Assembly: GCF_030817415.1 (NCBI RefSeq) | Contig: NZ_JAUSZI010000002.1 | Location: 7,564,001 to 7,628,000, forward strand | Origin: Streptomyces umbrinus | Lineage (GTDB): Bacteria > Actinomycetota > Actinomycetes > Streptomycetales > Streptomycetaceae | Direction of reading: 5' to 3' | DNA: 64,000 nucleotides | Program-made: the position numbers and the translations under genes | Shown here: one piece after another, positions 7,214-11,228 of the stretch | Layout of the letters: every line of letters starts with the position of its first letter | How positions within the stretch are numbered: the first letter of the stretch is position 1 | The notes under the pieces: model-generated | Database searches by the model: none | The model's input: only the letters and a program-made list of their open reading frames with translations | Told to the model about the DNA's origin: nothing

Positions 7214-7588
7214 TTGTCTCACCGCATGCTCCGCTCGGCGGCCACCGTGCTGCTGGCATCCGCACCGCTCTTCGCCGCCGCGCCGGCACGGGCCGCTGTG
7301 CAGCAGCAGGACTTCCCTTGCGCGGTCGGCGTCCAGAAGGCCGACAGTGCGGTGACCAGTGCGGTCACCGTCAGCATCCGATGCCAGGAAACGCAGACCG
7401 TTGGTGTGACGATCGCCGCGGGTGACGTCGAACTGGCGAGGCTGCAACAGACCGTTGAGGCCAATGTTCAGCAGAGCGTCACCCTCACCGTGCCCAGGGT
7501 CCCGCAGGTCTGCGCCACGCTGCGGGCCAACGGCGAGAGCACCACTCTCTGTACCCCTGCCGCCGCTTCCGCGCCGGGATCCGCCTGA
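7214..7588 (+). CDS. Small exported protein with three cysteines
   Basis: A 124-residue protein starting at TTG, which is correctly placed 4 bases after GGGAGGA; the in-frame ATG four codons later is too far. The N-terminus is a signal peptide ending ARA. The mature ~95 residues contain three Cys (FPCAVG, SIRCQE, QVCATL), many Val/Thr and no membrane anchor, suggesting a compact beta-rich extracellular domain. I do not recognise the family. It lies just upstream of the tandem two-Cys protein genes. Confidence 0.65.
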   Translation: MSHRMLRSAATVLLASAPLFAAAPARAAVQQQDFPCAVGVQKADSAVTSAVTVSIRCQETQTVGVTIAAGDVELARLQQTVEANVQQSVTLTVPRVPQVCATLRANGESTTLCTPAAASAPGSA

Positions 7589-7649: not shown

Positions 7650-7753
7650 CCGCGCCTCCGCCGGGTCCCGTGAAGCCGGTTGCGCCAAAAGGTGCGTAAC
7701 TCGCTTAGCGTCACTCAATTGGGCCTGTCGGGAATCGTGCGTTAAGAGAGGCT

Positions 7754-7790
7754 CGTGTTAGCGTCAGTGACGAGCCGAACACGGTCCGTA
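7754..7790 (+). promoter_or_regulatory. Conserved upstream block of the tandem small-protein genes, copy 1
   Basis: A block beginning CGTGTTAGCGTC and containing GTGACGAG and ACACGGTCCGTAA recurs almost unchanged 35-75 bases upstream of three consecutive genes (7754, 8400 and 8987). Strict conservation of a non-coding stretch ahead of each gene suggests a shared promoter or 5' leader. The sigma factor cannot be assigned; GGGAAT upstream of copy 1 is only a weak ECF-like -35 candidate. Confidence 0.45.
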
Positions 7791-7825
7791 ACGGGGATCG
7801 TGTGCGTGAAGAAAACGGAGACGTG

Positions 7826-8080
7826 ATGAACAAGCTCAAGAAGGCTGCGGCCGTGGCGGTCATGGTCGGCGGTCTCGGCCTTGCCGGCGGCGGGGTTGCC
7901 AGCGCCAGCGGTGGCGGCGACTACGACGACCCGTTCCCGTTCGCCGTCGACAACCTGCAGGTCGTGGAGTGCGAGCAGACGTTCGACGCCGGCACCGGCT
8001 TCATCGCCTCTCCCGTGGCCGGTGGTGACGTGGAGCAGAACATCGGCAACTTCTGCTCGGCGGTCAACGTCGAGGACTGA
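7826..8080 (+). CDS. Tandem two-Cys exported small protein, copy 1
   Basis: An 84-residue protein: signal peptide MNKLKKAAAVAVMVGGLG...ASA, then ~56 mature residues with the family pattern VDNLQVVECEQ...GDVEQNIGNFCSAVN and one Cys in each half. I chose ATG 7826 (GGAG upstream, clean signal peptide). A GTG eight codons earlier is in frame, and in the sister copies it has a strong AAGGAGG; here that site is degraded. It is not a chaplin: the GN and Cys spacing differ. Function unknown; a small disulfide-bonded surface or extracellular protein is likely. Confidence 0.7.
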   Translation: MNKLKKAAAVAVMVGGLGLAGGGVASASGGGDYDDPFPFAVDNLQVVECEQTFDAGTGFIASPVAGGDVEQNIGNFCSAVNVED

Positions 8081-8130
8081 TCAGGCGCTGTGGTGCCCGC
8101 GGGCGGCGTTGCCGCCTGAGGATGACTGGC

Positions 8131-8159
8131 GCCCCGGAAGGGTGTTGACCTTCCGGGGC
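8131..8159 (+). terminator. Hairpin after copy 1
   Basis: GCCCCGGAAGG pairs perfectly with CCTTCCGGGGC (11 bp, 7-base loop). The same element follows copy 2 at 8765-8793, so it belongs to the duplicated unit. Confidence 0.75.
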
Positions 8160-8168
8160 GCGAATGCG

Positions 8169-8233
8169 GTGCCTCCGGCGGGTGGTGGGGAACAAGGGTC
8201 ACGCTCTTGTTCCCCACCACCCGCCGGAGGCAC
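8169..8233. terminator. Very long perfect hairpin (28-bp stem) followed by T-rich tract
   Basis: The arms at 8169-8196 and 8206-8233 are perfectly complementary over 28 bp around a 9-base loop, then TTTGTTTTT. It lies only 10 bases after another complete terminator and is absent after copies 2 and 3, so it looks like an inserted element rather than part of the repeated gene unit. It could act as a terminator in both directions. Confidence 0.7.
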
Positions 8234-8471
8234 TTTGTTTTTGGGTGATCCGAGGTGGGTTGGGGGTAATTCGCATACCTGCGATATCAAATTTCAGTCA
8301 ACCGGATCACCCGGCTGCTCTGGTTGTCGTAAAAGGTGTGAATAACTTGATTAGTCCTACTTAATCCGGCGTGTCTGAAATGGTGGAGTAAGGGAGGGTC
8401 GTGTTAGCGTCTGTGACGAGTCGGACACGGTCCGTAAGGAGGCTCGTGTGCGTGAAGAAATCGGAGACGTG

Positions 8472-8714
8472 ATGAACAAGCTCAAGAAGACTGCTGCCGT
8501 AGTGGCCATGGTTGGCGGTCTCGGCCTTGTGGGCAGCGGGGTTGCCAGTGCCAACGGCTACGACGACCCGTTCGCCGTCGACAACCTGCAGGTTGTGGAG
8601 TGCGAGCAGTCGTTCGACGGCGGCGCCGCCTTCGCCGCCGCTCCCGTGACCGTTGGTGGTGACGTGGAGCAGAACATCGGCAACTTCTGCTCGGCGGTCA
8701 ACGTCGAGGACTGA
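8472..8714 (+). CDS. Tandem two-Cys exported small protein, copy 2
   Basis: An 80-residue paralogue of the gene ending at 8080. The signal peptide ends ASA, then NGYDDPFAVDNLQVVECEQ, a variable stretch, and GDVEQNIGNFCSAVNVED. The mature form has ~50 residues with two Cys. The upstream GTG at 8448 has an excellent AAGGAGG and would add MREEIGDV before the Met; I prefer ATG 8472 because that gives a normal basic signal-peptide N-region, but the longer form is possible. It sits in its own transcription unit with leader and terminator. Confidence 0.7.
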   Translation: MNKLKKTAAVVAMVGGLGLVGSGVASANGYDDPFAVDNLQVVECEQSFDGGAAFAAAPVTVGGDVEQNIGNFCSAVNVED

Positions 8715-8764
8715 TCAGGCGCTGTGGTGCCTGCGGGCGGCGTTGCCGCCTGAGGATGACTGGT

Positions 8765-8793
8765 GCCCCGGAAGGGCTTTGGCCTTCCGGGGC
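8765..8793 (+). terminator. Hairpin after copy 2
   Basis: GCCCCGGAAGG pairs with CCTTCCGGGGC, followed by GCTTTGTTTT. It is nearly identical to the element after copy 1. Confidence 0.75.
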
Positions 8794-9058
8794 GCTTTGT
8801 TTTGGGCTTTCGGCTGCGGGCCGGCGGGAAGTCCCTGCGGGTCTGCGTAATTCCTACTTGAGGCAGGCGCGTCGGGAATTCCAGTTAACCGGATCACCCG
8901 GCTGCTCTGGTTGTCGTAAAAGGTGTGAATAACTTGATTAGTCCCACTTAATCCGGCGTGTCTGAAATGGCGGAGTAAGGGAGGGTCGTGTTAGCGTCTG
9001 TGACGAGTCGGACACGGTCCGTAAGGAGGCCCGTGTGCGTGAAGAAAACGGAGACGTG

Positions 9059-9301
9059 ATGAACAAGCTCAAGAACACTGCTGCCGTAGTGGCCATGGTC
9101 GGCGGTCTCGGCCTTGTGGGTAGCGGGGTTGCCAGTGCCAACGGCTACGACGACCCGTTCGCCGTCGACAACCTGCAGGTCGTGAAGTGCGAGCAGGCGT
9201 TCGAATCCACCGCCGTCTTCACCGCCCTTCCCGCGGCCCCCACTGGCGACGTGGAGCAGAACATCGGCAACTTCTGCTCGGCGGTCAACATCGAAGACTG
9301 A
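9059..9301 (+). CDS. Tandem two-Cys exported small protein, copy 3
   Basis: An 80-residue paralogue. The leader and first half are almost identical to copy 2, the central stretch after CEQ is different (AFESTAVFTALPAAPT), and the end GDVEQNIGNFCSAVNIED is conserved again. The same start ambiguity applies: GTG 9035 with AAGGAGG versus ATG 9059 with GGAG. The two Cys are retained. Function unknown. Confidence 0.7.
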   Translation: MNKLKNTAAVVAMVGGLGLVGSGVASANGYDDPFAVDNLQVVKCEQAFESTAVFTALPAAPTGDVEQNIGNFCSAVNIED

Positions 9302-9320
9302 ACCGACGTGCGGCGGGGGG

Positions 9321-9349
9321 CGGGTCTCGCGCCTTCAGTGCGAAACCCG
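9321..9349 (+). terminator. Imperfect hairpin after copy 3
   Basis: CGGGTCTCGC pairs with GCGAAACCCG with one mismatch, 20 bases after the stop of copy 3. A second, perfect hairpin lies at 9434. Confidence 0.45.
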
Positions 9350-9433
9350 TTGCTCCCATGCTTGTCGCGTCGGACGCCCTGATCGATCTGGTGGCTCCGG
9401 GCCGAAGGGGCAGCGGCAACAATGCGTAGAACA

Positions 9434-9470
9434 GGAGATGTCGAGATGCCAGAAGCTCGACATCTCCTTT
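9434..9470 (+). terminator. Perfect 12-bp hairpin with TTT
   Basis: GGAGATGTCGAG (9434-9445) pairs with CTCGACATCTCC (9456-9467), then TTT. It separates copy 3 from the diverged fourth copy. Confidence 0.7.
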
Positions 9471-9531
9471 GCCGTTCTGGATGGAGCCACGACGTTTCGT
9501 AGTGGCCGCGAGTCAATCCATGGAGTTACGC

Positions 9532-9792
9532 GTGTACAGGTTCAAAAAGATCATGCTGGTGACAACCGCTATCGGTGGTATCAGCCTGACGGGGGCCGGG
9601 GTCGCCCAGGCTCACTGCGCTGACGACCAGCCCGACACCGCCATCGAAAACGCGCAGTTGCTGAACTGTGAACAGGAATACAGCTCCAGCTCCCTGGTCG
9701 AGGTCAATGCGCCGATCACCGTCCTGGGTGACAGTGTTACGAACATCGGAAATTTCTGCACGCAGGTCACTCAAGATCGTGACAGTCGCTGA
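9532..9792 (+). CDS. Diverged fourth member of the two-Cys protein family
   Basis: An 86-residue exported protein. The GTG start at 9532 has GGAG seven bases upstream; an ATG at 9520 is the alternative. The signal peptide YRFKKIMLVTTAIGG...AQA is followed by a mature part with IENAQLLNCEQEY and GDSVTNIGNFCTQVTQ, matching the CEQ and NIGNFC landmarks of the three upstream copies at low overall identity. It has an extra Cys right after cleavage (AHCADD). Promoter-like block and leader are not shared, so this is an older paralogue. Confidence 0.65.
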   Translation: MYRFKKIMLVTTAIGGISLTGAGVAQAHCADDQPDTAIENAQLLNCEQEYSSSSLVEVNAPITVLGDSVTNIGNFCTQVTQDRDSR

Positions 9793-10165: not shown

Positions 10166-10426
10166 ATGACTGATGTAATTATCCTGCCGCGTTGCCCGAA
10201 GACGGGGAAGGCGTCGTTCCGTACTGAATCCGAGGCGAGGGTCTGGCTGGTCAGGCAGCCACTGTTGGACAGGATCCCGGATCGTATCTACCGATGCTCC
10301 GACTGTCAGTACTGGCACTTCACCGGGTCCCATCACTGGACCAGTCAAAAAATCGGCTGGCGACGAAACTACGGCAGGCGTGAAATCGCTTCCCGGCGCA
10401 ACGGTGGGAAGAAAAGGAGGAACTGA
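10166..10426 (+). CDS. Small basic zinc-ribbon-like protein
   Basis: An 86-residue cytoplasmic protein starting at ATG after GGAGGG. It has CPKTGK near the N-terminus and YRCSDCQYWHFTGSHH in the middle, which could bind one metal ion (Cys, CxxC and nearby His). The C-terminus is strongly basic (RRNYGRREIASRRNGGKKRR). Similar short proteins with this pattern occur in actinobacterial mobile and accessory DNA; no function is established to my knowledge. Confidence 0.65.
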   Translation: MTDVIILPRCPKTGKASFRTESEARVWLVRQPLLDRIPDRIYRCSDCQYWHFTGSHHWTSQKIGWRRNYGRREIASRRNGGKKRRN

Positions 10427-10484
10427 CTGCCGAGTCAGCCGGATCTTCCCCCTTATTCGATCAGAAATCAGAAAGACGACGAGA

Positions 10485-11228
10485 TTGCGAAAGAACCTGA
10501 GCAAGGGAATTGTCGTGACCGCCGCTGCGACGAGTGTGCTGTCCCTGTACGTCATCCCGGCGTTCGCGGACTCGCCCCCCGAGGAGACCTCGGGGGGCCC
10601 ACTCGGCGCCCTGTCCGACACGCCTGCTGCCCTGCCCGGCGACAGTGTCCTCCACGCCTTGGGGAACGGTCCCGCAAGCGCGAGTCCCAACACCAGCGAC
10701 GTGAGCACCGCGCCCGACCCGTCCCCCGTGAACTCCCGCATCGGCGGCCCGAACCCCAGCGGGTCGCAGGGGGCTGCCCACGACTCGGCCCCGGCTGACG
10801 GCCGCGAGGACGGGAACCACGGACACGACAGTGATCACGACGACGCTGCCGGGTACGGCGAGGACAGCGACTACGGCGAGGACAGCGACTACGGCTACGG
10901 CGACGACCACGGCTACGACAGCGGCTACGGCGACGACTACGGCTATGGCGGCTACGGCGACACACCGCCCACAAAGCCCCCCACCACGCCGCCGGCGTCA
11001 CCGCCCACCGCCACGCCACCGGTGAAGTCACCGCCTGCGTCGCCGCCCCCGACCACTCCGCCCAGCACCCCGCCGCGGAAGCCACCGGCCTCGCCCCCGA
11101 CACAACCGCCCTCCCTGCCCGAGACCGGCACCAACGAGCAGGTGCTGGCGGCGTCGGGCATCGCCGCGCTGCTGTTGACGAGCGGCGCCATCCTGTACCG
11201 ACGAGGCCGAGCCGAATCCCGTCGATAG
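10485..11228 (+). CDS. LPETG-anchored surface protein with chaplin-like signal peptide
   Basis: A 247-residue protein from TTG 10485. The leader RKNLSKGIVVTAAATS...FADS closely resembles chaplin signal peptides. The mature part has no intact chaplin domain: the PAALPGDSVLHALGN stretch is only faintly similar and lacks the Cys pair. A region of GYGEDSDYG-type Asp/Tyr/Gly repeats and His/Asp-rich sequence follows (residues ~110-160), then a Pro/Thr-rich wall-spanning stalk, LPETG, a hydrophobic segment and RRGRAESRR. It should be attached to the wall by a class C/E sortase. The ribosome site is weak and the open frame extends 35 codons upstream, so the start is tentative. Confidence 0.75.
   Translation: MRKNLSKGIVVTAAATSVLSLYVIPAFADSPPEETSGGPLGALSDTPAALPGDSVLHALGNGPASASPNTSDVSTAPDPSPVNSRIGGPNPSGSQGAAHDSAPADGREDGNHGHDSDHDDAAGYGEDSDYGEDSDYGYGDDHGYDSGYGDDYGYGGYGDTPPTKPPTTPPASPPTATPPVKSPPASPPPTTPPSTPPRKPPASPPTQPPSLPETGTNEQVLAASGIAALLLTSGAILYRRGRAESRR

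Follow-up and report, generated by a model that had tools for sequence, protein, structure and literature searches.

Probable concerted evolution of a tandem family of small, putatively exported two-cysteine proteins in Streptomyces, with a possible sheath role where rodlins are absent

The window analysed here is a 64,000-nucleotide stretch of the 12.4 Mb genome of Streptomyces umbrinus (genome G000; contig NZ_JAUSZI010000002.1, positions 7,564,001 to 7,628,000 of the forward strand), in which four tandem genes, g1 to g4, encode small, putatively exported proteins with a variable core between two conserved cysteines (Table 1). A first-pass annotation made from the sequence alone had noticed the array and suggested that diversifying selection or cassette exchange acts on the core. 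Our tests support concerted evolution of the array, with gene conversion apparently homogenising the ends of the genes and mostly sparing the core, and we consider whether the proteins might replace the rodlins at the cell surface.

The products of g1 to g4 have 80 to 86 residues. They begin with basic residues, continue through a hydrophobic stretch to an AxA site, and end in 53 to 59 mature residues that carry the landmarks NxQxxxCxQ and GDxxxNIGNFC. The signal peptides are of Sec type as judged by eye from the sequence letters rather than by a predictor, and the initial description of four plus-strand tandem genes for exported two-cysteine proteins is borne out. Three of the genes had also been called near-identical; they are related tandem copies, but protein identity to g2 is only 84% for g1 and 83% for g3 (44% for g4). 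Similarly, copies 2 and 3 had been read as a 587-bp tandem duplication, of which the likeness over 8290-8702 stands (413 bp with 29 mismatches, of which the core stretch accounts for 18), but not an extent of 587 bp; g1 and g2 in turn have 141 nt in common at 96% identity. We refer to g1, g2 and g3 as A-type and to g4, which has an additional third cysteine directly past the likely cleavage site, as B-type.

The mature chains are acidic and not hydrophobic, with a calculated isoelectric point (pI) of 4.1 and a grand average of hydropathy (GRAVY) of -0.03 to -0.48. Across 52 aligned homologues N38, Q40, C44 and Q46 are invariant and C73 is almost so. Gln 48 of the B type is nearly invariant only. 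A further set of 53 genes comprises the open reading frames (ORFs) that fit a regular expression requiring NxQ...CxQ plus a later cysteine; it left out members such as L051, L055, L067 and L068, and L059 and L061 were omitted as copies of L048 and L049. A third cysteine past residue 27 is absent from 51 of these 53, a set chosen by a pattern that itself demands two cysteines, and the chain past residue 27 spans 48 to 64 residues. The family is best described as tandem genes for small, putatively exported proteins that are acidic (pI about 4) and probably held by a disulfide. An AlphaFold prediction of g2 was uninformative (predicted local distance difference test score, 48.6) and was not used for a fold search.

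Table 1. Features of the array and its surroundings (window coordinates; SD, Shine-Dalgarno sequence)
Feature	Position	Strand	Remarks
g1	7826-8080	+	A-type exported two-Cys protein, 84 aa, mature about 57
g2	8472-8714	+	A-type, 80 aa, mature about 53
g3	9059-9301	+	A-type, 80 aa, mature about 53
g4	9532-9792	+	B-type, GTG start, without A leader
g1 variable core	7979-8023	+	between CEQ and GDVEQNIGNFC
g2 variable core	8610-8660	+	18/51 bases unlike g3
g3 variable core	9197-9247	+	stretch compared with 8610-8660 of g2
g1 conserved leader	7751-7825	+	TANNNT (-10-like) at -67, SD GGAG about -9
g2 conserved leader	8397-8471	+	97% to g3 leader
g3 conserved leader	8984-9058	+	same A-type leader
Inverted repeat after g1	8160-8242	+	near-perfect, about 32 predicted pairs, then T-rich run, -73 kcal/mol predicted
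Predicted intrinsic terminator of g2	8762-8796	+	3 sites in region vs 2.1 expected by chance
Conserved small exported protein upstream of array	7214-7588	+	TTG start as listed
Conserved 86-aa ORF downstream of array	10166-10426	+	counterpart at 18/30 loci (two places counted twice)
LPXTG-anchored exported protein	10434-11228, start approximate	+	Gram_pos_anchor / LPXTG_anchor match

Divergence of the core and homogenisation of the gene ends

Averaged over 14 arrays (the 51 A-type genes minus single copies and L062-L064), divergence per base is 0.134 in the leader, 0.079 in the signal peptide, 0.153 in the N-terminal mature part, 0.294 in the core, 0.085 in the C-terminal motif and 0.311 in the first 60 nt past the stop codon. 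In 11 of the 14 arrays the core diverges more than any of the other four segments from the leader to the C-terminal motif, and its variability as first described is real, yet it does not exceed that of untranslated sequence. The base counts reported earlier for the window are also exact, with 18 of 51 bases differing between 8610-8660 and 9197-9247 against 6 of 150 in the preceding stretch (Fisher p 6e-8). The ratio of non-synonymous to synonymous differences per site (pN/pS), pooled within arrays with three pairs involving a B-type gene, is 0.28 in the signal peptide, 0.74 in the N-terminal mature part, 1.03 in the core and 0.87 in the C-terminal part. Comparison of copies at the same array position in this genome, S. 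canus (locus L043) and genome G253 gives 0.69 for the core, from 42.3 synonymous and 71.7 non-synonymous differences in nine pairs, and 1.51 for the C-terminal part.

The cores follow array position. Across four strains core identity averages 0.593 between copies at the same position, 0.455 between copies at other positions of other strains and 0.440 between copies of the same strain, and only the true labelling out of 216 reaches the value of the position effect. The flanks behave differently. Leader identity between copies 2 and 3 within a genome is 0.97 in the window (g2 and g3), 0.97 in S. canus and 0.99 in G253, as compared to 0.89-0.93 among the second and third copies of different genomes, and tail identity between copies 1 and 2 is 0.94, 0.95 and 0.80 in the same three genomes. 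In this genome the excess extends upstream, where copies 2 and 3 are 0.96 identical from -182 to -76 and same-position copies 0.74-0.89.

Because these contrasts amount to few bases we compared runs of identical variable sites with 4000 column shuffles, setting the limit at 0.05/15. Five of the six within-genome pairs pass (copies 2 and 3 of S. canus and of G253, and copies 1 and 2 of all three genomes), and only one of 24 between-genome pairs does so (g2 of the window with copy 1 of S. canus). Uneven conservation alone may lengthen such runs, and the between-genome pairs serve as the control. These patterns point to gene conversion that homogenises the ends of the array genes and leaves the core mostly spared. 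Exchange between copies, as proposed in the first-pass annotation, is supported; it is visible in the flanks, and the cores mostly track array position across strains.

Another conceivable origin for g2, whose 5′ half is like g3 and whose 3′ half is like g1, would be a recent unequal crossing-over. We reject this as a recent event since copy 2 is equally mixed in S. canus, where its tail resembles copy 1 and its leader copy 3, and in G253, and since the cores follow position.

Relatives, distribution and the absence of rodlins

No described family was found for the A/B proteins, in line with the initial reading, which named no described function: neither the four window proteins nor the aligned members and relatives match a Pfam or NCBIfam entry, g1 to g4 and their homologues match no toxin or inhibitor family, and a search of the open literature recovered no publication that we recognised as describing them. 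A PDB search gave two weak unrelated matches only (homoserine kinases, E 0.4 and 0.69), and neither query matched in a plasmid search. A phmmer search returned 51 matches, the window's own copies included, and a profile built mostly on g4-type sequences returned 282, of which the best 120 were inspected; all organisms named among the family matches listed are Streptomyces. Matches were found in 35 of 392 genomes of the genus (E 1e-3), and clear A/B genes in nine of these (G000, G106, G108, G124, G176, G252, G253, G274 and G349), while among 296 genomes of 72 genera (E 1e-8) five were positive, all of one genus. The genus-wide searches sampled largely the same genomes on each occasion. Loci hold one to five A genes and are mostly terminated by a single g4-type B gene, which comes last in L043-L050, L052-L054 and L060.

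Other streptomycetes contain small exported two-cysteine proteins beginning MRKYQ or MRKLR, for which we found no published name. They resemble the A/B proteins in having a related signal peptide, a similar leader layout and tandem arrays, and differ in the spacing and sequence between the cysteines; clear hairpin covariation is seen in the MRKYQ leaders only. Alignment of the A/B and MRKYQ profiles scores 21.3 in hhalign, above all of 60 shuffles (up to 18.9), and the profile, leader and signal peptide together appear to tie these relatives to the A/B family. We also note a stray family gene elsewhere in this genome (L005, 1501-1725; contig C2, about 40.9 kb, near the left end) that has a similar leader and in which GNFC lies ahead of NLQ...C; a permuted order of this kind recurs in P0050 and L067.

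Rodlins are missing from the genomes chosen for the family or its locus. Of 384 genomes of the genus, 270 are positive with a rodlin query, as against none of 22 chosen genomes, namely nine with A/B genes, seven with relatives and six with another or no identified protein at the same locus; rodlin queries also find no match in G000. Rodlins occur in just two of the 35 genomes of the family search, G107 and G310, whose family matches cover residues 1-30 and 1-34 and are essentially signal peptide. The contrast of 2/35 with 268/349 gives a Fisher p of 3e-17, uncorrected for ancestry; the two samples are a few genomes apart, and the test of G388 belongs to the set of 22. The passages seen of one paper (PMC4255298) describe rodlins that 'appear to be lost readily' and give S. 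avermitilis, S. griseoflavus and S. hygroscopicus as examples. Family proteins are present in S. avermitilis records, and an MRKYQ relative in an S. griseoflavus record.

The rodlins RdlA and RdlB are spore-coat proteins needed to form the rodlet layer of aerial hyphae and spores. Like the A/B proteins, they are small, exported and known only from streptomycetes, have two cysteines and are encoded by paralogous genes. They are considerably longer, with a mature chain that in the part of the source seen is given as 105 residues with an amyloid-forming N-terminal part (PMC5314377), compared to 53-59 residues in the window. A short QNQxC-like stretch is common to the MRKYQ and rodlin profiles (hhalign score 19.5, against at most 15.2 in shuffles), and UniRef names one MRKYQ relative, P0227, 'RdlA protein'. 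By a regular expression applied to stretches of 1.8-3.2 kb, some of them overlapping, a chaplin gene lies nearby at seven of 14 MRKYQ loci and in ten of 30 rodlin stretches.

The short chaplins (PF03777) are also exported two-cysteine proteins of similar length with a C-terminal GNxC, and one chaplin of this genome has 52 mature residues, near the mature length of the g1-g4 products. Like the chaplins, g1 to g4 have a C-terminal GNxC, in the form GNFC, along with the two cysteines, g4 with its third cysteine apart. The cysteine spacing is different and the A/B chains are acidic, whereas the chaplin is hydrophobic (pI 6.0), and PF03777 is matched by none of the four window proteins, 52 aligned members and 10 further members. 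Membership in the chaplins was rejected: a small profile comparison scored 19.1 (100 shuffles up to 16.0), but a larger set of 133 family and 30 chaplin sequences scored within the shuffle range. The genome does contain genuine chaplins (six domains); one (L200 8034, contig C2 at about 9.00 Mb) has a signal peptide identical to that of g1 at 17 of 27 residues. The A/B-family member P0107 has a UniRef name that starts with 'Chap'.

A possible sheath role and its alternatives

Our preferred explanation joins concerted evolution of the array, the part backed by the tests described here, to a role of the products in the surface sheath in place of rodlins, and for the combination we estimate a probability of roughly 0.4. 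Conversion would give copies 2 and 3 a common leader and copies 1 and 2 a common tail, beyond expectation, in each of the three genomes, and would mostly leave the core with one identity per array position, diverging much as untranslated sequence does. On aerial hyphae or spores the proteins may reach the surface and could serve there as structural sheath proteins, filling the rodlin role where a streptomycete lacks rodlins. Assembly contacts might be supplied by the conserved ends (NxQ...CxQ and GD..xNIGNFC), with the core being a weakly constrained surface loop or linker.

A number of results weigh against this explanation. On the evolutionary side, g2 and g3 fail the runs test and are the weakest of the six pairs (162 of 4000 shuffles), homogenisation of the signal peptide is clear solely in G253 (0.99), that of the C-terminal part is not seen outside this genome, and the excess from -182 to -76 is not clear in S. 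canus (0.89) or G253 (0.76). In S. canus, copies 1 and 2 have cores with an identity of 0.82, and drift leaves an excess of 16 non-synonymous differences to one synonymous in the g2/g3 core unexplained. On the functional side, the A/B and rodlin profiles show no similarity (12.1; 60 shuffles up to 17.5), and the hhalign probability is only 25% for A/B with MRKYQ and 5% for MRKYQ with rodlins. The A/B proteins are acidic and not hydrophobic (GRAVY -0.03 to -0.48 as compared to 0.61 for the chaplin of this genome) and have no secure profile likeness to chaplins (15.0, with 60 shuffles reaching 18.3), and the pattern that finds chaplins near MRKYQ and rodlin genes finds them at none of 34 A/B loci, duplicates included, in stretches of up to 19 kb. 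Finally, about 81 more genomes have neither rodlins nor a family match, and phylogeny-corrected independent pairs number only one to three that are informative, all in the expected direction and none opposed, and are not significant.

The last two points would be accounted for if rodlins were absent by coincidence, through shared ancestry, and the family had an unrelated extracellular role, which we regard as a possible, if somewhat unlikely, alternative. On a tree of the rpoB region for 30 genomes the 22 chosen genomes are scattered, not forming one clade, with family genomes interspersed among rodlin genomes, and rodlins versus family requires five changes; the genomes were picked by label, such that change counts are not unbiased, and 11 of 27 inner forks are unresolved. 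That the MRKYQ relatives adjoin chaplins, as do rodlins, also speaks against coincidence. A more elaborate form of the sheath reading, which we consider doubtful, is that streptomycetes which have lost rodlins use A/B arrays, MRKYQ/MRKLR arrays or the Asn-rich proteins described below to build the outside of the spore sheath in an alternative way, in which ends kept uniform by conversion and a diversified core would yield a strain-specific surface.

Two further alternatives concern the core itself. Under diversifying selection, one of the two processes suggested at first reading, the core would be a surface that recognises a phage, predator, competitor or host, and amino-acid change there would be advantageous. 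The non-synonymous excess in the cores of this array agrees with this: differences are 16:1 for g2/g3, 13:0 for g1/g3 and 8:1 for g1/g2, the core differs from the rest of g2/g3 (Fisher p 0.006), and in codons 47-63 of g2/g3 third bases differ at three of 17 sites as compared to 15 of 34 first and second bases. These counts leave room for selection in this lineage, but they come from three non-independent pairs of one genome (binomial p 0.02 for 16:1), and the three-strain same-position and the pooled within-array pN/pS are 0.69 and 1.03. Diversifying selection is not the best reading of the variable core because the core diverges like the untranslated tail, core identity follows position across strains, and the flanks point to gene conversion; we consider it unlikely. 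Equally, neither a core ratio of non-synonymous to synonymous substitution rates (dN/dS) well below one across many strains nor a match to a characterised family was found.

Alternatively, relaxed constraint alone could suffice. Purifying selection would then act on leader, signal peptide and C-terminal motif, the core would be a free linker, and gene conversion would not be required. The equal rates of core and tail, the low pN/pS of the signal peptide and the failure of g2/g3 in the runs test are all consistent with it. We nevertheless give it little weight, as five of six within-genome pairs and only one of 24 between-genome pairs pass that test despite equally uneven conservation, and synonymous divergence within arrays reaches 0.30 in the core but only 0.21 in the signal peptide and 0.14 in the C-terminal part. 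It is improbable that the proteins are ligands of secreted enzymes, either protease inhibitors or transglutaminase substrates with a reactive invariant glutamine: Gln 40 and Gln 46 are invariant across the 52 homologues, and streptomycetes export transglutaminase and inhibitors cross-linked by it according to the part of the source seen (PMC4757070), but inhibitor families are unmatched, Gln 48 of the B type is nearly invariant only, and glutamine ladders fit a fibrous protein equally well.

Under the preferred explanation the array supplies candidate genes for a published loss, that of rodlins, for which the passages seen of PMC4255298 name no replacement; the association itself is negative across hundreds of genomes. 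It would also be a bacterial example of concerted evolution acting at both ends of a 250-bp gene and mostly sparing its middle, and homogenisation of the ends only may mimic diversifying selection when just two copies are compared. The conserved A-type leader, the covarying MRKYQ hairpin, the proximity of MRKYQ genes to chaplins and the exclusion of rodlins are new here.

Leaders, terminators and neighbouring genes

The A-type genes have about 70 nt immediately 5′ of the ATG in common. A TANNNT box lies at -69 to -62, mostly at -67, in 49 of 51 A genes and is followed by strongly conserved sequence and an SD sequence GGAG at about -9, suggesting that each A-type gene carries its own -10-like box and conserved leader; this leader is absent from g4 and from the B genes of L051 and L052. 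Database entries place an N-terminal extension (MREEIGDVM...) on these proteins from an in-frame upstream GTG. We reject this extension, the region being leader, and the GTG start is doubtful because leaders vary by insertions or deletions of 1-2 nt. GACAC, described as the WhiA box in the part of the source seen (PMC3781837), is found in 27 of the 51 stretches of 100 nt examined upstream of the genes, in three of these only at -6; the motif is short and frequent.

RNAalifold gave no convincing RNA structure for the A leaders (-0.8). The MRKYQ leaders have a similar layout plus a covarying 6-bp hairpin about 75 nt before the ATG, in 14 sequences (L016-L018, L020, L022-L030 and L034). In this hairpin 96.4% of cells are paired and 13 both-side changes occur, and neither figure is reached by any of 500 shuffles; the number of pairs with a both-side change (three) is matched by 156 of 500 shuffles. 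There is thus good evidence for a predicted RNA hairpin in the MRKYQ leaders, which does not extend to the A leaders. When modelled, the MRKYQ leader matches in two of 61 genomes and nowhere in G000, with tandem sets in G026 and G027.

The long inverted repeat that follows g1 is absent from the sequence 3′ of g2 and g3. It is probably the terminator of g1 and possibly a small insertion; Rfam gave sub-threshold matches only, mostly on this hairpin.

Neighbouring genes include an AMP-ligase, the LPXTG protein, an oxidoreductase and conserved ORFs, and the counts that follow, over 30 loci, include some places twice. A small exported protein similar to that upstream of the array is present at nine of 30 loci (L049 and L061 being one place) and at five of six loci in a second comparison, relatives of the LPXTG protein at 13, the oxidoreductase at 14 and an ORF without Pfam match at 14. 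We recognised no toxin or immunity gene in the part of the neighbourhood scanned, where immunity genes of an unrecognised type are possible.

Of 392 genomes of the genus, 15 have the 86-aa ORF, namely all nine with A/B genes and six others. One of these six (L135) has no protein in the array slot within the short stretch examined, and in the other five the slot holds a different small exported protein (L133, L134 and L136-L138), with no rodlin found in those genomes. Four of the five slot proteins are Asn-rich, for example NTNTNTNT. The middle of the LPXTG protein is Tyr/Gly/Asp-rich and Pro-rich, and its relatives at several loci match the ends and not the middle.

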